From positions 248,001 through 312,000 of the forward strand of contig NZ_OZ060393.1 in the NCBI RefSeq assembly GCF_964059135.1: 64,000 nucleotides of DNA, written 5' to 3'. Origin of the DNA: Buchnera aphidicola (Symydobius americanus) (GTDB lineage: Bacteria > Pseudomonadota > Gammaproteobacteria > Enterobacterales > Enterobacteriaceae). The position numbers were made by a program, and so were the translations under genes. Under the pieces are notes generated by a model. The model was not told the DNA's origin. It saw only the letters and a program-made list of their open reading frames with translations, and ran no database searches. Below are positions 18,738 through 59,051 of this stretch, piece by piece; position 1 is the first letter of the stretch; each line of letters starts with the position of its first letter.

Positions 18738-19472
18738 ATGAAAAATAAAAAAAAAATAGCTTTAGTTACTGGAGCAAATCGGGGGATAGGACAAGAAATT
18801 GCGAAAAAATTATCAAAAAATAATATTATTGTTATTGGAACAGCAAAAAATTTGATAGAAAAAAATAAAATTAATTCAATGTTAGGAAAAAATGGATTTG
18901 GAATAATTTTAGATGTTACAAATAAACTCGAAATATCACAATCTGTTCAAAAAATTCATAACAATTTTGGAATTATTGATATATTAATTAATAATGCTGC
19001 TATTAAATATGATAAATTATTAATTCAAATGAGCGATCATGATTGGAATAAAACTTTAAAAACTAATTTAACTAGTATATTTCATATATCAAAAGCAGTA
19101 ATAAAAAAAATGATTCAACAGAAATATGGAAGAATTATTACTATTGGTTCAGTTATAGGAGAATTAGGTAATATTGGACAAATTAATTATTCTACCTCTA
19201 AATCTGGAATTATTGGATTTAACAAAACATTAGCTTTAGAAGTGGCTGATAAAGGAATAACAGCAAATGTTATTTCTCCAGGGTTAATAAATACAGATAT
19301 GATAAACGATATTTCCCTAGAAAAAAAAAAAAAATATTTATTAAATATCCCCATGAAAAAATTTGGATCTAAAAAACATATTGCAAGTATGGTGTTATAT
19401 TTAATTTCTAAATCAGCTGCTTATATTACTGGACAAACAATTCATATTAATGGTGGAATGTATATGAACTAA
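18738..19472 (+). CDS. fabG: 3-oxoacyl-ACP reductase FabG
   Basis: 244 residues, the E. coli length. Short-chain dehydrogenase fold: TGANRGIG cofactor loop at 11-18, NNAA near 85, and the catalytic triad Ser138, Tyr151 and Lys155 (YSTSK). It reduces 3-ketoacyl-ACP with NADPH. The frame passes through a run of 14 consecutive A (19321-19334), encoding a lysine stretch before YLLNIP. It is still open, but it is a likely site of polymerase slippage. It follows fabD by 2 bases and precedes acpP by 105 bp. Confidence 0.97.
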   Translation: MKNKKKIALVTGANRGIGQEIAKKLSKNNIIVIGTAKNLIEKNKINSMLGKNGFGIILDVTNKLEISQSVQKIHNNFGIIDILINNAAIKYDKLLIQMSDHDWNKTLKTNLTSIFHISKAVIKKMIQQKYGRIITIGSVIGELGNIGQINYSTSKSGIIGFNKTLALEVADKGITANVISPGLINTDMINDISLEKKKKYLLNIPMKKFGSKKHIASMVLYLISKSAAYITGQTIHINGGMYMN

Positions 19473-35553: not shown

Positions 35554-35817
35554 TTAACGACGCAATCCTAAATCCTGAATTAAAATATTATATTGAGGTA
35601 AATTTTTAGTTTTTAAATAATCTAATAATTTTCGTCTACGCGATACCATTCTTAATAAACCGCGTTTGCTAGAAAAATCATGTTTATGAGTATCAAAATG
35701 CTGTTTTAAATAATTAATCTTATAACTTAGTAATGCTATTTGTACTGAAGAAATACCACTATTCTCTACATACTGTCCGTATTTTAAAATAATATCTTTC
35801 CTATTAAACGCTTTCAT
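35554..35817 (-). CDS. rpsO: 30S ribosomal protein S15
   Basis: 87 residues (E. coli 89). Conserved helix strings SSVQIALLSYKINYLKQH and SKRGLLRMVSRRRKLLDYL match S15, which binds the central domain of 16S rRNA early in assembly. It sits between truB and pnp, as in E. coli. An intrinsic terminator follows its stop. Confidence 0.98.
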   Translation of the reverse strand: MKAFNRKDIILKYGQYVENSGISSVQIALLSYKINYLKQHFDTHKHDFSSKRGLLRMVSRRRKLLDYLKTKNLPQYNILIQDLGLRR

Positions 35818-35865: not shown

Positions 35866-36781
35866 TTAAATATTTAATAATTTATATGAAATTAACTCTC
35901 CTAAATTTCCAACCATACCTATTATAAATATTTTTTTATTTTCTTTAATAGTAATTCTTACAAAACTATTTCGTGTTAGAGGAATTGGACAAAATTTTTG
36001 TTTTTGATAGAGTGTAGATAAAGAATCAATTTTAATTTCAGGTAATGTAAAAAAAATATCCTTTAACGATAATAATAAATTGAACATAATGTTATTATTA
36101 TCTAACGCATCAGAAAATTGACGTAACTTATATAAATTCATGAAATTTATAGCCTTTGAAACATGATATATACCAACCATTAATCTCCTTAAAAAAATTA
36201 CATGTGCTCCACATTTTAACAATTTTCCTAAATCATGAATTAATGTACGAATATACGTTCCTTTCGAACAAGTAATTTCCAATTCAACTATTTCGTTATT
36301 AAACTGAATACAATTAATATGATATATAAATACTGTTCTTTGAATTTTAGGAACAGAAATATTTTTCCGAGCATATTTATATAATGGCAAACCTTGATAT
36401 TTAATTGCTGAATAAACTGGAGGAAATTGAATAATTTTACCTTGAAAATTCTGTAAAGCATTATAAAATTCAATTTGGGTAAAATTAATTGAATGAGTTT
36501 CTACAATAGATCCTTCAGAATCATAAGTAGAAGTAACTTGACCTAATTTGCCAATCACATGATATGACTTTATTGAATTTGTTAAATAATTTGATAATTT
36601 AGTTGCTTCACCAAAACAAATAGGTAAAATGCCTGTTGCTAATGGATCTAATGTACCTATATAGCCAGCTTTATGAGCTCTAAAAATTTTTTTAATTTTT
36701 TGTAATGCCTGATTGGAAGATATGCCTTGGGGTTTGTCTAATAACAATACACCATGAATATTTTTTTTTTAAAATATGCAT
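35866..36781 (-). CDS. truB: tRNA pseudouridine-55 synthase TruB, frame broken at a 10-A run
   Basis: As written, the conserved frame begins only at a TTG (36747) inside LLLDKPQG and would give 293 residues without a ribosome binding site. An ATG at 36781 lies one base after the rbfA stop. From it the frame runs through 10 A (36761-36770) and ends out of register. With 9 A it would read MHILKKNIHGVLLLDKPQG, the proper TruB N-terminus, and 304 residues in all. The catalytic GTLDPLATGILP and the CSKGTYIRTL motif are intact. TruB makes pseudouridine 55 in tRNA. The gene may be rescued by polymerase slippage, carry a sequencing error, or be starting to decay. Confidence 0.85.
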
Positions 36782-36782
36782 T

Positions 36783-37220
36783 TTATAAGCTTTTTGAAGT
36801 TGTTTTATTATTCTTATTATTTTTTAAAGAAGATTTAATTATATTAGAAATTTTCATTCCAGTAAGTAAAGAACTATCATGATAAAAATATAAAATTGGA
36901 ATTTTTCGTAAATTAAATCTTTGATACAATAATTTTCGTATATAATTAGAAGAATTCTGTAATATATTTAATATTTCAGAAATTTTATATTTACTATTAA
37001 AAAAATTTTTTGCATTACTATACTGTTCTAAATAACTAAAAAATATTTTTGCACAGGATAAATCACGAGATACACGTACCATAGAAATTGTAACTAAAAA
37101 ATTAATTCTAGGATCTTTAATATATCGCATTAAAATAATTGATATTTCTTTTTTTAATTCCTGCGAAACACGAATAGCACGTGTAAAATTTTTTTTTTGA
37201 TTCAATTGAGGGTATTTCAT
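36783..37220 (-). CDS. rbfA: Ribosome-binding factor A
   Basis: 145 residues (E. coli 133). KH-like small protein with RAIRVSQELKKEISIILMRYIKDPR at its N-terminus and VTISMVRVSRDLSCAKIFFS in the core, both RbfA features. It helps 30S maturation at the 5' end of 16S rRNA. Between infB and truB, as in E. coli. The C-terminus is extended by an Asn/Lys-rich tail. Confidence 0.95.
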   Translation of the reverse strand: MKYPQLNQKKNFTRAIRVSQELKKEISIILMRYIKDPRINFLVTISMVRVSRDLSCAKIFFSYLEQYSNAKNFFNSKYKISEILNILQNSSNYIRKLLYQRFNLRKIPILYFYHDSSLLTGMKISNIIKSSLKNNKNNKTTSKSL

Positions 37221-37287
37221 AAAATTTAAAAAATATTGTTAAAAGTAATTAAATAAAATAAATACATAAAATAAATTTTAAAACACG

Positions 37288-39492
37288 CTATATTTGAGTA
37301 TTTTCAAATGATTCAATAATATCACCAACACAAATATCATGATATTTTTTTATTCCAATTCCACATTCTTTACCGCTACTCACTTCTTTGACATTTTCTT
37401 TAAATCTCCTTAATGAATCTAATTCACCCTCATGTATTATATTATTTCCGCGTAGAACTTTAACTGGATTAGTACGCTTAATTATTCCGTCTATAACCAT
37501 TACTCCAGCAATGACAGAACATTTAGAAGTTTTAAAAATATTACGAACTTCTGCTTTTCCAACGTGTTTTACTTGATACGCAGGAGAAATCATGTTTTTC
37601 ATAGATGATTTTATAGCCTTTATAATATCATATATTACTGTATAATAATATGTACTAACTTTCTCTTTCTGAATCATCTGCTTTGCTAAATAATTAGATT
37701 TTACGTTAAAACCAATAATTTTAGCCCGAGAAGCTATAGCTAAAGAAACATCAGTTTCAGTAATATCTCCAACATTGGAACTAATAATTTTTATTTCTAT
37801 AGATGGAATAGATAAAGATTGTACTGTATGAACAATTGCTTCTAAAGAACCTTGAGCATCAGCTTTTAAAATTAAATTAAGTTTAGAATTCGATTCATTT
37901 TGTAAATCCTGAAACATGTTTTCAATATTAGATGTTTTATAAGTCAAAAATTTATCTTCTCTAGACCTTTTTTTTCTATATAAAGCAACTTCTCGTGCTT
38001 GTTTTTCGGTTGTTACAACATTAAATATATCTCCACTAATAGGAATGCCTGATAATCCTAATATTTGTACTGGAATAGCAGGTTCAGCAATTTGTAATTC
38101 TTTTCCAAACGCATCAAGAATTAAACGAATCTTGCCATATTCAAAGCCACATAAAATAATATCCCCTTTCTTTAAACTACCTTCTTTAATTAAAATAGTA
38201 GCTATTGGACCTTTACTACTATCTAAAAAAGATTCAATAACTACACCAGAAGCCATACCAGAATATGTAGTAGTTAATTCTAATAATTCAGATTCTAATA
38301 ATATCGCGTTTAATAAATCATTAATTCCTTGACCTGTTTTTGAGGAAATGGTAACAAATACATGTTTACCACCCCATTCTTCTGGAATAATATCATGTTT
38401 CATTAATTCTTTTTTGACGTTTTCAGGATTAGAATCTAATTTATCAATTTTATTAATTGCTACAATTAATGAAACATTAGCAGCTTGAACATGTTGAATA
38501 GCTTCAATTGTTTGAGGTTTAACACCATCATCTGCTGCAACAACTAATATTACAATATCTGTAATCTGTACTCCTCGGGCTCTCATTGAAGTAAAAGCAG
38601 CATGTCCAGGGGTATCTAGAAAAGTTATCACTCTATTATTGTTTTTAACATGATAAGCACCAATGTGTTGTGTAATTCCTCCAGATTCGTTTAAAGCAAT
38701 ACGAGTAGAACGAATATAATCTAATAAAGAAGTTTTACCGTGATCAACATGACCCATAATAGTTACAATAGGCGGCCTAGTTTGTTTAGTATATTTTTGA
38801 TTTTCGATATTACGATAATTAATTATTGAATCTTCTAATTTATTATCATTACGTAAAATTACCTTATGTCCCATTTCTTCTATTACTAATTGTGCTGTTT
38901 CATGATCAATAACTTGATTTATAGTAACTACAACACCCATGCGTATCATTCTTTTTATTAATTCAGATACTTTTATTGAAAGTTTATTAGATAATTCTAA
39001 TATTGTAATAGTCTTATTAAGAATAATTTCTCTTGAAATAAAATTAGAAGGTTTAGTAAAATTTTGTTGTAAAACACTACCTCTTTTATTATAAAGAACA
39101 TGTTTTTTTTTACGCAAACGAATTTTCGGAATTTCAGTCTCTTTAGTGTTATCATAATATTTTAATTTATTTTGATAATTTGTATATTTAATATTTTTAA
39201 TATTAGAGTACTTATTTTTTTCAATCAATTTCTTTTTTTCATTATCTTTTTTAGTTACATGTAAAAATTTTTTAACATGATTATTTGAAATAGAATCTTT
39301 AACAAAAAATTCAGAAGATAAAAAAGAATTAATTTTATTTGAACATTGTAAAATACATAATAATTTAATAATTATTATTTTATAATTATTACTATAATTT
39401 CTACTAATAATTACAAAAAATATTTTCTTTAAAAATGGTATTTGATAAAATAACATTTTAAAAATTAAATATCTTAAATTAATTTCTTTCAT
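37288..39492 (-). CDS. infB: Translation initiation factor IF-2
   Basis: 734 residues against 890 in E. coli. The GTPase core is complete: [29 protein letters not shown] and NKIDK. C-terminal fMet-tRNA-binding domains are also complete. The middle linker is reduced to about 100 Lys-rich residues. The N-terminal IF2N module (1-55) aligns gaplessly with E. coli but shares few residues and is rich in Ile/Phe, so it looks degenerate. The second IF2N-like segment near 155-205 ([19 protein letters not shown]) is well kept. It follows nusA, with the usual nusA-infB-rbfA order. Confidence 0.96.
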
Positions 39493-49619: not shown

Positions 49620-50972
49620 ATGTTTAATAATATTAAAAAAAAATTTATATCAATAATTAAAAATATTTCTGGTCAAGGTAGAATTACAGAAAAAAATATT
49701 CAAAATACTTTAAGAGAAATTAGAATAACTTTATTAGAAGCAGATGTTCCATTAATAGTAATTAACAAATTTATAAAAAATGTAAAAAAGTTTGCAATTG
49801 GAAAACATGTTAATAATAGTTTAACTCCCGGTCAGGAATTTATTAAAATTATTAAAAATGAATTAATATCTATTATGGGAAAAGAAAAAAATAATATTAT
49901 TTTTTCCAAAAAAAAAATATCTATATTTTTAATTATTGGATTACAAGGATCTGGAAAAACAACTACTGTAGGAAAATTAGGAAAATTTCTTAAAATTAAA
50001 CATAATAAAAAAATCTTAGTTAGCTCTGCAGATACTTATAGACCGGCAGCAATAGAACAATTAAAAATTTTATCAAAAAAATCAAATATTGATTTTTTTC
50101 AACCAAAACAAAATAGTAATCCTATTGAAATTAGCAAGCAGGCTGTACAAGAAGCAAAAAATAAATTATATGATATTCTAATATTAGATACAGCTGGTCG
50201 ATTACATATTGATAATAATATGATGCATGAAATCAAAAATATTCAAAATATTATAAAACCAACAGAAATCTTATTTGTATTAGATGCTATGATGGGACAA
50301 GATGCACTTCATACAGTAAAAGTATTTAATCAATTTATTTCAATATCAGGTATAATTTTAACTAAATTAGATAGTGATACTAGAAGTGGATCTGCTTTTT
50401 CAGTAAACTATATTGTGAAAAAACCCATTAAATTTATCGGTATAGGAGAAAAAATTAATGATTTAAAAATTTTCGAACCAAAAAAAATCGTTTCTCGTAT
50501 TTTAGGAATGGAAAGTGTTTTATCTATTATAAAAAAAATCGATAAAAAAATCAATCGTCAAGATATAAAAAAAATAAATGAAAAAATTACAAAACAATAT
50601 AAATTTAACTTAAATGATTTTAAATTACAGATTATACAGATGTCTAAAATAGGAGGTATAAAAAATATTATAAAACAATTGCCTATGAAATTATCAAACA
50701 ACTATCAAATGCCAAAAAACCAAGAAAAAAAATTTTTAATAAAAATGGAAGCTATCATTAATTCAATGACACCACATGAAAGAAATAATCCAAATATTAT
50801 TAAAGGATCAAGAAAAAGAAGAATAGCTAATGGATCAGGAACTAATGTACAAGAAGTTAATCAATTATTAAGAAAGTTTGATGAATCAAATAAAATGATG
50901 CAACATATAAAAAAAAAGGGAACACGAACAATATTACAAAATTTTAAAAATATTATCAAAAATATATTTTAA
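49620..50972 (+). CDS. ffh: Signal recognition particle GTPase Ffh
   Basis: 450 residues (E. coli 453). N domain, G domain with GLQGSGKTT near 107-115, DTAGRLHID and TKLDSDTRSG, and a C-terminal methionine-bearing M domain (about 300-430, including SRKRRIANGSGT). With 4.5S RNA it targets nascent membrane proteins to FtsY. First of the ffh-rpsP-rimM-trmD-rplS group, in E. coli order. Confidence 0.97.
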   Translation: MFNNIKKKFISIIKNISGQGRITEKNIQNTLREIRITLLEADVPLIVINKFIKNVKKFAIGKHVNNSLTPGQEFIKIIKNELISIMGKEKNNIIFSKKKISIFLIIGLQGSGKTTTVGKLGKFLKIKHNKKILVSSADTYRPAAIEQLKILSKKSNIDFFQPKQNSNPIEISKQAVQEAKNKLYDILILDTAGRLHIDNNMMHEIKNIQNIIKPTEILFVLDAMMGQDALHTVKVFNQFISISGIILTKLDSDTRSGSAFSVNYIVKKPIKFIGIGEKINDLKIFEPKKIVSRILGMESVLSIIKKIDKKINRQDIKKINEKITKQYKFNLNDFKLQIIQMSKIGGIKNIIKQLPMKLSNNYQMPKNQEKKFLIKMEAIINSMTPHERNNPNIIKGSRKRRIANGSGTNVQEVNQLLRKFDESNKMMQHIKKKGTRTILQNFKNIIKNIF

Positions 50973-51304: not shown

Positions 51305-51817
51305 ATGGATCAATTAATTAAACCAATCATTATCGGAAAAATAGGAACTTGTTATGGAATTTTAGGATGGAATAAATTAACTTCTTATACTGAAAATAAA
51401 GAAAATATTTTAAAATATAATAAATTTTTTATACAAAAAAATAATCGATGGAAAAAAATAAGTATATTAAAAAAAAAAATACATTATAATACAATAATTA
51501 TAAAAATTGATAACATTAATAATAGAGAAGATGCTAAAAAAATTACTAATAAATTAATTGCAATTGATGAAAAAACATTACCTGATTTAAAAAAAAACGA
51601 ATATTATTGGAAAGATATTATAAATTGTGATGTATTTACAATAAATAAGAAATATTTAGGAAAAGTAGATTATATTATTCGAGAAAAAATTAATGATTTA
51701 CTTAGTATAAAAAAAAATAAATACCAAAAAAATGCAATACTAATCCCATTTATTCAAAAAAAAATTATTAAAAATATTGATATTTTAAATAAAAAAATTT
51801 ATATCAACCATCAATAA
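51305..51817 (+). CDS. rimM: 16S rRNA processing protein RimM
   Basis: 170 residues (E. coli 182). The N-terminal domain starts IIGKIGTCYGILGWNKLTSYT, like the GKI..YGIRGWLKVFS of the family, and the C-terminal PRC-barrel contains EYYWKDIINCDVF. It binds S19 and helps mature the 30S head. It is strongly diverged, with many Lys/Asn/Ile substitutions. The gene position before trmD is diagnostic. Confidence 0.92.
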   Translation: MDQLIKPIIIGKIGTCYGILGWNKLTSYTENKENILKYNKFFIQKNNRWKKISILKKKIHYNTIIIKIDNINNREDAKKITNKLIAIDEKTLPDLKKNEYYWKDIINCDVFTINKKYLGKVDYIIREKINDLLSIKKNKYQKNAILIPFIQKKIIKNIDILNKKIYINHQ

Positions 51818-55327: not shown

Positions 55328-56257
55328 TTAACATATATTTATTAAATTTAATATATCACTTGGTAAAGATATATTACAATCAATTAAAGTATAATTAATA
55401 GGATGAAAAAATTTAATTCGAATTGCATGCAATGCTTGTCTAGGAAAATTATAAACACTCTTAAATTGTTTTAAATCAATACCTTTAGGAATCAAATTTC
55501 TCATTTGATATATCCTATCTCCAATAATAGGATGTTTAATATGTAACATATGTACTCTAATTTGATGAGTTCTTCCAGTTTCTAATCTAATTTTCAGATG
55601 CGTATAATATTTAAATCTTTTAATAATTCTATAATGTGTAATTGATGGTTTCCCAGAAAGATGAGTCATCATACAAACTCTTTTCTTAAAATGTCTCATA
55701 ATAGGAAAATTGATTGTACCTCCAGACAAAAAATTTCCTAATACTACTGCCTCGTACTCACGAATAATTTGTCTATTTTTTAATAAATAAACTAATCTGT
55801 TATAACTCAACAAATTTTTTGCCACAATCATCAAACCGGTAGTATTTTTATCCAATCTATGTAAAATACCAGCCCTAGGTATATTATGAAAAATCGAATC
55901 ACGAAATAATAATGCGTTTAATAATGTTCCATGAGTATTACCAAAACCAGGATGGACTACCAAACCAGCAGGTTTATTTAAAATTAATAAATACTTATCT
56001 TCATAAACAATATCTAAAACAATATTTGAAAAAGAATCAATTGATTTTTCATTAATTAAAATAATTATTTCATCACCCAAACAAACACGTCGTTTAGGTA
56101 TTTTAGTTATTATACAATTAACTAACACCTTCCCAGATAAAATAAGTTTTTTAAAAAAAGATCTAGAATATTTAGATAAAATATTCGATAAAAAAAGATC
56201 CAACCTTTTATTAAAAATATTATTTTCCAAAACTTTTAAAATAATTTTTTTTTTCAT
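55328..56257 (-). CDS. rluD: 23S rRNA pseudouridine synthase RluD (1911/1915/1917)
   Basis: 309 residues from ATG 56257; E. coli RluD is 326. An upstream ATG at 56290 adds 11 residues without homology. The S4-like domain (KYSRSFFKKLILSGKVLVN) precedes the catalytic HRLDKNTTG near 127-135 and LETGRTHQIRVHMLHIKHP. It forms three pseudouridines in helix 69 of 23S rRNA, the most important of its class. The E. coli C-terminal tail is missing. It is divergent from alaS. Confidence 0.95.
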   Translation of the reverse strand: MKKKIILKVLENNIFNKRLDLFLSNILSKYSRSFFKKLILSGKVLVNCIITKIPKRRVCLGDEIIILINEKSIDSFSNIVLDIVYEDKYLLILNKPAGLVVHPGFGNTHGTLLNALLFRDSIFHNIPRAGILHRLDKNTTGLMIVAKNLLSYNRLVYLLKNRQIIREYEAVVLGNFLSGGTINFPIMRHFKKRVCMMTHLSGKPSITHYRIIKRFKYYTHLKIRLETGRTHQIRVHMLHIKHPIIGDRIYQMRNLIPKGIDLKQFKSVYNFPRQALHAIRIKFFHPINYTLIDCNISLPSDILNLINIC

Positions 56258-56429
56258 AATGTAAAAAATATTAAAATATTTAAAAAACAAAAAATTTTAA
56301 ATATATTAAATATTATAAATAAATTAATTTGATAAAAATATAAATTATTATTAAAAAATCATAAAAAATACGTTATAAATATATTTAAATTTATAACTCA
56401 TATAATATTTAACCTGATTCAGGAAATAT

Positions 56430-59051
56430 ATGCAATATACAACTAAAAAAATTCGTAAAATGTTTCTAGATTTTTTTAAAGAAAATAATCATAAAATAAT
56501 AGAAAGTAGTTCTTTAATTCCTCAAAAAAATTCTAATTTATTGTTTACTAATGCTGGTATGAACCAATTTCAAAATATATTTTTAGGAAAAGAGAAATAT
56601 CAATTTCAAAAAGTAGCAACTGTTCAAAAATGTTTACGAACAGGAGGAAAGCACAATGACCTGGAACAAGTAGGATACAGTCAATATCACCATACTTTTT
56701 TTGAGATGCTAGGTAATTTTAGTTTTGGAGATTATTTTAAAAAAGAAGCAATTTTATACGCATGGAAATTATTAACCGATAGAAATTGGTTTAATTTACC
56801 TAAAGAAAAAATTTTAGTAACCGTTTATCAAGACGATAATGAATCATATAATATATGGAAAAATTTAATTGGATTATCTGTAGAAAATATTATTCTGATA
56901 GGAAATACACCAAATAATCCTTATGTATCAGATAATTTTTGGCAAATGGGAGAAACAGGACCTTGTGGACCATGTACTGAAATATTTTTTAAAAAATCTA
57001 ATGATATATTCAAAATATCCCATTTAAAAGATAAAAAAAAATATATAGAAATCTGGAATATCGTTTTTATACAATTTAACAGAATTAATCAAAATAAAAT
57101 AATTCCTTTACCTATATTTTCTGTCGATACCGGCATGGGATTAGAGAGAATTGCTTCTATTTTACAAAATGTAAATTCAAATTATGAAATAGATATCTTT
57201 AAAGAATTAAAAAAATCAATTTTAAAAATTAATAACTTAAAAAAAATCAAACATACAAAATCATTAAATGTCATTTCAGATCACATTAGAGCATCAGTTT
57301 TTATTATACAAGAAAATATATTACCTGATAATGAACATCGAGGTTATGTATTAAGACGTATTATTCGAAGAGCATTAAGACATGGTGAAAAACTGGGCAT
57401 AAAAAATCCATTTTTTTATAAAATAGTACCTGATGTAATAAAATGTATAAAAATATTTGGAGAAAAAATAAGATTCCAACAAAATAATATTAAAAATATC
57501 TTAAAAAAAGAAGAATTACAGTTTACAAAAACACTACAAACAGGACTAAAATTATTAAAATCTGAGATAAAAAAAATAAAAAATCATCAACTAGATGGAA
57601 AGACTGTATTTTACCTATATGATACAATAGGGTTCCCAATAGATTTAACCCAAGATATTTGTAAAGAATATCAAATTAATATCAACATAAATGAACTCAA
57701 GAATGAAATAAATAAAAAAAAAAGACAATCCAAACAAAATAAAAACAAAATCAAAAATCTTCCCAACGTCATTCAAAATACATATACTTCTACTTTTAAA
57801 GGATACAATCACAATAAAATTACTTGTATTGTAAAACAGATTTTCGTTAATCAACAAGCAGTAAACAAAATACTTCCAGAAGAAAAAGGAATAATTATAT
57901 TAGATCGTAGTCCATTTTATGGAGAATCTGGTGGACAAATTGGAGACAGTGGAATTATTTACAATTCAAAATCTCTCTTTCATGTACAGAATACACAAAA
58001 CTATGCAACTACTATTATACATATTGGTCAAATAAAAATAGGTTCATTAGAAATAAATGATCTTGTAACTGCCCACATTGACGAAAAAAAACGAAAATTA
58101 ATTCAAAATAATCATTCTGCTACACACTTATTACAACATGCATTAAATAAAATACTAAAAAAAAATATTATCCAAAAAGGATCATATATTAGTGAAAAAT
58201 ACTTAAGATTTGATTTTTCTTACAATCAAGAAATTAGTATAAAAGAAATATTTTGTATAGAAAAATTAATTAATAAAAATATTCAAAAAAACATTAATAT
58301 TTGTGATGACCATCTAAATTTTGAAGAAGCTAAGAATCAAGGTTATATTTTTTTTCAAAATAAAACATATAATTCTATAGTACGAACATTAAAAATAGGA
58401 AATATTTCAAAAGAATTATGCAAGGGAACACATGCTCATAATACAGGAAACATTGGATTATTTAAAATTATATACGAAAAAAGTATTTCAAGAGGGATAC
58501 GTCGAATAGAAGCTGTTACAGGAAAAAAAGCATTAAAACATATTTATAATCAATATAAAAAAAATATTAATATTAATAAAATTCTAAAATCTAACCACGA
58601 ATCTATTATTCCAAAAATCAAAAAATTAATTATAAACTATAAAAATCTAGAACAATCAAATAAACAATTAAATAAAAATATTATTGCAATTCAAACAAAA
58701 GAATTAATAAATAAAATAATACAAATAAAAAAAATTAATTTTTTAAATAGCGAAATTAAAATCAAGGATAGAAAATTATTAAAAAATATGATAGATCAAT
58801 TAAAAAACAAAATACATACTGGAATAATTATTTTATTTTATAAAAAAATAAGCAAAAATATTTTTATGGTAGGAGTAACTAATAATTTAACTAATATAAT
58901 ACAATCCAATAAAATTATCGAAATTATTAAAAAATACGCTAACGGGTCGGGAGGAGGAAAAGCTGAAATAGCAGAATGTATTACTGAAAATATTAATAAT
59001 TTAGATCAACTCATAAATTATATTAAAAAATGGATTGAACTAAAAATATAA
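56430..59051 (+). CDS. alaS: Alanyl-tRNA synthetase
   Basis: 873 residues (E. coli 876). Class II core with NAGMNQFQNIFLG and GETGPCGPCTEIF, then the editing domain with HSATHLLQHAL and the zinc-type CKGTHAHNTG near 665-675. The C-terminal C-Ala oligomerisation part ends GSGGGKAEIAECI. It charges tRNA-Ala and deacylates Ser/Gly mischarged tRNA. It is preceded by a divergent rluD and followed by csrA, the enterobacterial order. Confidence 0.98.
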   Translation: MQYTTKKIRKMFLDFFKENNHKIIESSSLIPQKNSNLLFTNAGMNQFQNIFLGKEKYQFQKVATVQKCLRTGGKHNDLEQVGYSQYHHTFFEMLGNFSFGDYFKKEAILYAWKLLTDRNWFNLPKEKILVTVYQDDNESYNIWKNLIGLSVENIILIGNTPNNPYVSDNFWQMGETGPCGPCTEIFFKKSNDIFKISHLKDKKKYIEIWNIVFIQFNRINQNKIIPLPIFSVDTGMGLERIASILQNVNSNYEIDIFKELKKSILKINNLKKIKHTKSLNVISDHIRASVFIIQENILPDNEHRGYVLRRIIRRALRHGEKLGIKNPFFYKIVPDVIKCIKIFGEKIRFQQNNIKNILKKEELQFTKTLQTGLKLLKSEIKKIKNHQLDGKTVFYLYDTIGFPIDLTQDICKEYQINININELKNEINKKKRQSKQNKNKIKNLPNVIQNTYTSTFKGYNHNKITCIVKQIFVNQQAVNKILPEEKGIIILDRSPFYGESGGQIGDSGIIYNSKSLFHVQNTQNYATTIIHIGQIKIGSLEINDLVTAHIDEKKRKLIQNNHSATHLLQHALNKILKKNIIQKGSYISEKYLRFDFSYNQEISIKEIFCIEKLINKNIQKNINICDDHLNFEEAKNQGYIFFQNKTYNSIVRTLKIGNISKELCKGTHAHNTGNIGLFKIIYEKSISRGIRRIEAVTGKKALKHIYNQYKKNININKILKSNHESIIPKIKKLIINYKNLEQSNKQLNKNIIAIQTKELINKIIQIKKINFLNSEIKIKDRKLLKNMIDQLKNKIHTGIIILFYKKISKNIFMVGVTNNLTNIIQSNKIIEIIKKYANGSGGGKAEIAECITENINNLDQLINYIKKWIELKI

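Follow-up and report, generated by a model that had tools for sequence, protein, structure and literature searches.

In Buchnera aphidicola (Symydobius americanus), a run of adenines places the probable start codon of truB and the remainder of the gene in different frames, raising the question of whether its product, a tRNA pseudouridine(55) synthase, is still made and, if so, how the break is bridged. We examined the locus in a window of 64,000 nt (contig NZ_OZ060393.1, positions 248,001 to 312,000; coordinates below are those of the window), which belongs to a genome of 453,427 bp in a single contig (hereafter G000), and in a genus set of 11 genomes including G000.

The upstream neighbour of truB is rbfA (30S ribosome-binding factor A; 36783..37220, minus strand, as are all features of this locus), identified with NCBIfam TIGR00082 at 85.7 bits versus a cut-off of 51.15. 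Its TAA stop occupies 36785-36783, and the single base 36782 separates it from an ATG (36781-36779) that is probably the truB start codon: all 11 genus genomes have an ATG 18 to 51 nt ahead of the conserved GxxxxDKP motif, in frame with it in eight. Eight bases, CATATTTT, lie between the ATG and an A10 tract (36761..36770; T10 on the plus strand), which is directly followed by TATTCATGGTGTATTGTTATTAGAC. Translation from the ATG in the zero frame gives a peptide beginning MHILKKKYSWCIV that closes after 29 residues (29 codons plus stop, 36692..36781). The truB body is annotated at 35866..36747, with 293 aa from a mechanically assigned TTG start, and its open frame extends, stop to stop, between 36768 and 35869. 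By eye, removing one A from the tract, or adding two, puts the ATG and the TruB body in the same frame, giving ...KKNIHGVLLLDKPQG. A first-pass annotation of this DNA had described an ATG one base past the rbfA stop that runs into ten adenines and then loses the frame, which is right in both coordinates and frame; its remark that removal of one A yields the exact TruB start is fair for the genus, as exemplified by MYKNIHGILLLDKP in genome G008. Downstream of truB lies a gene that we take to be rpsO (35554..35817), with a tblastn match in each of the other 11 genomes of a 12-taxon set. A search for a separate truB promoter found no minus-strand promoter-like site in 36600-37300 (four plus-strand sites; shuffles averaged 6.3 over both strands).

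The body is that of a TruB protein, scoring 236.7 bits against NCBIfam TIGR00431 (curated cut-off, 151.45) and matching Pfam TruB_N (175.7 bits) and TruB_C_2. Two relatives, G002 and G005, also carry a truB body out of frame with the upstream ATG, and all three bodies carry the TruB motifs GxLDxxA[ST]GxL, around the catalytic Asp (GTLDPLATGIL in G000 and G002, GILDPLASGIL in G005) and KGTY[IV]RxL (SKGTYIRTL in G000 and G002, SKGTYVRTL in G005). Counted from the GxLLLDKP motif up to their stops, they contain 295, 296 and 296 residues in G000, G002 and G005, respectively, and those of the in-frame species contain 295 to 300.

Differences among these three bodies are lowest at the second and highest at the third codon position, as in the in-frame species. 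The values for positions 1/2/3 were.305/.163/.376 for G000-G002,.339/.193/.376 for G000-G005 and.206/.118/.250 for G002-G005, with means of.338/.224/.403 over the 28 pairs of in-frame species. Under a simple neutral model, in which 10% of the sites of 500 simulated bodies were redrawn, only 1.0, 0.2 and 0.2% stayed free of stops for G000, G002 and G005. Amino acid identity among the three proteins is 58-71%; that between G000 and G002 (60.0%) is the seventh lowest among 29 genes, for which the median is 64.9%, so TruB evolution in this pair is somewhat fast, not extreme. By its open frames and codon-position differences, the truB body is otherwise intact and under purifying selection in the three genomes, and its product is probably still made, rather than the gene being dead or misread.

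The break at the start of truB is confined to three of the 11 genus genomes. The body follows an A10 run at offset 1 in G000, an A11 run at the same place at offset 2 in G002, and an A10 run, also at the same place, at offset 2 in G005, such that the frame would be restored by one A less or two more in G000 and by one more or two less in the other two. The remaining eight genomes have an in-frame ATG before truB and no A run longer than 8 there. Among 19 further family loci, a hand-chosen sample (17 of 20 from one new search plus two from an earlier one), 18 were readable and all of these were in frame, with an ATG start or, in two, a TTG; one was unreadable.

G000, G002 and G005 form one clade in the multigene trees. 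The 12-taxon tree (five genes, 1221 columns, G020 as outgroup) groups G000 with (G002,G005) with an ultrafast bootstrap of 90, and G002 with G005 with 100; a set of 29 genes (9918 columns) from five genomes gives a support of 100 to the split of these three from G007 and G010. In a tree of truB only, rooted on the distant G020, G000 falls outside and does not group with G002 and G005. The simplest history is a single truB break in the ancestor followed by at least one change of offset; independent breaks in the three lineages are possible.

Our preferred reading, to which we assign a probability of about 0.6, is that truB still functions, although the A10 tract keeps its start codon and its body in different frames, and that slippage of RNA polymerase bridges the two. 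Translation would initiate at the ATG adjoining the rbfA stop. RNA polymerase would slip on the A10 tract, a run at least as long as the 9-base RNA:DNA hybrid, and the resulting pool of transcripts would be mixed in run length, with the 9-A or 12-A share encoding full TruB and the rest yielding short peptides. The break would have arisen no later than the last ancestor shared by the three genomes. It would have persisted since then, its offset changing, because even a run of this kind with an out-of-frame length would still give some full-length message.

Several observations favour this reading. The body lies out of frame across an A run of at least 9 in G000, G002 and G005, and the break is shared by these three of 11 genomes, all of one clade, with offsets that are not identical. 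Since the offset differs between species, a frame-blind process fits better than one fixed ribosomal shift: what is needed at truB is a process that ignores the frame, either mixed run lengths produced by RNA polymerase or a start of translation below the run. The proximity of the ATG carries less weight, because an ATG starting within 11 nt ahead of a run of at least nine A is common (82 of 396 runs), and its presence in all three genomes is only suggestive (0.207 cubed, about 0.009, for genomes that are not independent).

Slippage at poly(A) tracts is well documented in related systems. Tamas et al. (2008, PNAS), as cited elsewhere, found that it rescues genes frameshifted at poly(A) runs in Buchnera and Blochmannia (PMC3017870, PMC3164680, PMC5009743), and frameshifted genes of one aphid and one ant endosymbiont are reported to have corrected frames in 12-50% of transcripts (PMC5009743). 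In Citrobacter rodentium, slippage on the A11 run of tssM1 reportedly gives a longer product at about 20-25% (PMC4256274). Insertion slippage in Buchnera is described as climbing exponentially with run length, up to 11 nt (PMC5574713). For E. coli RNA polymerase, no slippage activity is reported below 8 A (PMC6260861); the truB runs of 10-11 A lie beyond that limit, which favours slippage.

Other published data fit less well. Homopolymers account for 151 of the 157 transcription insertions reported for Buchnera but for only 16 of the 57 deletions, single bases make up 80% of the insertions, and the same genome-wide survey describes no error that restored a frame (PMC5574713). Insertion of a single base suits G002 and G005, which need one A more, but not G000, which would have to lose one A or gain two; that this is not the usual direction counts against slippage. 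Deletion slippage by E. coli RNA polymerase, in turn, is stated to be absent on the poly(A) lengths examined in that work (PMC6260861).

The main rival to slippage is a start of translation below the tract, in which case the ATG frame would be irrelevant and TruB slightly shortened. The candidate codons are an ATT just past the tract, recognised by eye in the TruB frame at 36759-36757 (ATT also in G005, ATC in G002), or, in G000, the in-frame TTG at 36747-36745. Such a start would account for both the neutrality of the frame and the constrained body with no need for slippage. However, a scan of the stretch reaching from 60 nt upstream of the first base of the motif to 40 nt downstream of it found no in-frame ATG, GTG or TTG opening the body in G002 or G005; the sole in-frame GTG of G002 is followed by a stop after six codons, and the position of the TTG of G000 is TTA in both. 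Consequently, only the rarely used ATT and ATC starts remain for these two genomes. The TTG itself can be due to chance, since TTG represents 62 of the 585 TTA and TTG codons counted in those of 22 window genes that lie on the minus strand. In addition, the ATG before the tract has been retained in all three broken genomes, and ATG[C/T]AT is common to G000, G002 and several in-frame species. We regard a start below the run as rather unlikely.

Ribosomal frameshifting on the A-rich message could also restore the truB frame, as A runs are slippery for ribosomes, and G002 and G005, both with offset 2, would be accommodated by a shift of -1. G000, with offset 1, needs the opposite shift, so that no single direction serves the three genomes. 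Nor did we find, in a folding model that leaves pseudoknots aside, a structure clearly beyond those of shuffled sequences (z of 0.23, -0.98 and -1.71 for G000, G002 and G005); the result for G005 was marginal, with 9 of 200 shuffles folding as well, and the stretches from G002 and G005 begin inside the tract. Because the direction differs and there is no clear structure, ribosomal shifting is less likely than polymerase slippage, and we deem it improbable.

A further explanation is that sequencing or assembly gave the wrong tract length for G000, whose true genome would have 9 A, since A10 runs are error-prone and a single base restores the frame. The window contains 83 A or T runs of at least 9. 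Coding-strand A runs flanked by homology support on either side account for 64 of these, and every one of the 64 was filed as frame-keeping; outside them are six T runs, eight edge cases (truB included) and five runs lacking support. A frame-change survey of the window found no A-run junction inside any protein gene, and its three clusters there fell on tRNA genes. Ten other runs of at least nine A that fall within the first 75 nt of the 49 listed window genes are all inside open frames. Because the window runs were all filed in frame and no protein gene was broken in the survey, the assembly bears no sign of many homopolymer errors; long runs elsewhere keep the frame, and truB does not in three species.

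Over five syntenic 64-kb stretches, 334 of 337 supported coding-strand runs of at least nine A were filed as frame-keeping; this total leaves out 23 T runs, 12 unsupported runs and 24 edge cases, which include the three truB runs. The three cases filed as differing (positions 58341 in G002, 13050 in G005 and 18133 in G007) were rejected once the sequence was read, as they are ends or starts of genes. The census is lenient, in that a stronger match on one side that reaches across the run is filed as the same frame, and a re-check located five breaks within the 334 (rimM and rluD in both G002 and G005, and pheA in G007); hence, the figure is too high by at least five. Since long coding A runs nearly all keep the frame, with a rule-of-three upper limit near 5% on the error rate from the 64 window runs, and two relatives are broken at the same place, an error in the G000 tract is very unlikely. 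The constrained body likewise speaks against the homopolymer error that the first-pass annotation had named as its alternative. Its main proposal, a gene expressed despite the frameshift, gains from the similar breaks in two relatives, from the open, constrained body and from the frame keeping elsewhere, whereas slippage as the mechanism bridging the break is something that we infer.

Finally, the idea that truB has recently become a pseudogene in this clade, or is decaying into one, is hardly credible: the frame from the ATG is closed in the three species, 24 of 392 sampled family genomes have no TruB match and truB is dispensable in E. coli, but about 295 codons have stayed open in each of the three despite their divergence, and second codon positions differ least.

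Read as a case of polymerase slippage, truB adds to an established kind of poly(A) frameshift, its particular features being the site close to the start, a change of offset and the occurrence in each of the three genomes of the clade. It resembles the slippage-rescued genes described in Buchnera and Blochmannia in having a long coding A run within an otherwise intact gene of an AT-rich insect endosymbiont, and differs from them in that the run comes right after the start codon and the rescue is deduced from sequence. The ancient homopolymer frameshifts of Blochmannia, kept by selection according to Wernegreen et al. (2010, MBE; as cited in PMC3017870), are likewise shared by several species in genes with no detectable decay, although truB is a different gene, broken near its start, in a clade of aphid symbionts. 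Eight Buchnera genomes are reported to contain the same kind of lesion, with 1 to 18 homopolymeric frameshifts each, murF for example; truB is absent from the examples given there (PMC3164680). The tssM1 gene of C. rodentium shares the long A run (A11), with slippage that was shown by experiment; unlike in truB, its break is described as far from the start and both of its products as needed. Our literature search, judged by titles and the openings of abstracts, found no earlier report of a truB frameshift.

More tentatively, the truB frame of this clade may be free to drift: a run of at least about 10 A would yield some full-length message whatever the offset, so that the offset shifts while the protein stays constrained, and the run would act as a brake that sets TruB output at the rate of slippage and has been kept through divergence to 58-71% identity. 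This is a doubtful extension of the slippage reading. Should that reading hold, expression of a tRNA-modification gene has gone on despite a broken frame throughout the history of a Buchnera clade, and functional genes would be lost from, or shortened in, annotations that treat such cases as dead or move their start to a TTG. Nature would then also supply three variants of a single start (A10, A11 and A10, in two offsets) with which to measure how much slippage suffices.

Other genes of the relatives are also interrupted at A runs. The rimM gene is out of frame at an A12 run in G002 (locus L058) and G005 (L059); in each, one additional A or the loss of two would restore the frame. It is intact in the window (51305-51817); in G000 and G007 the frame is kept and the site has no long run, and five genomes (G009, G001, G010, G006 and G003) have runs of A8 to A13 at the same place, in frame, with two of the 11 loci not readable by motif. 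The rimM and truB breaks fit a lineage that tolerates such breaks in genes of ribosome and tRNA maturation.

We also noted that rluD (loci L062-L072) is broken ahead of the catalytic domain in G002 (A13) and G005 (A9), and is intact in G008 and in the window (55328-56290), where the protein has an S4 match. No S4 domain was recognisable by eye upstream of the catalytic domain in G009, G010, G003, G001 and G004, that is, in five of the eight loci where the search motif was found (it was not found in three of 11). As no S4 region was recognised in these relatives, the rluD breaks look like domain loss; we set them aside as further rescued genes and did not count them as support. In G007, the frames of the two parts of a presumably pheA-like gene differ at an A9 run, around positions 49650-49950 of the joined stretch L041-L044. 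An ATG directly follows the break, and this possible gene split, which may represent two genes, was not retained as a case of slippage. Lastly, an A14 run at 19321-19334 of the window keeps the frame inside a gene (18738-19472) that we take to be fabG-like, offering a possible in-frame control for slippage.
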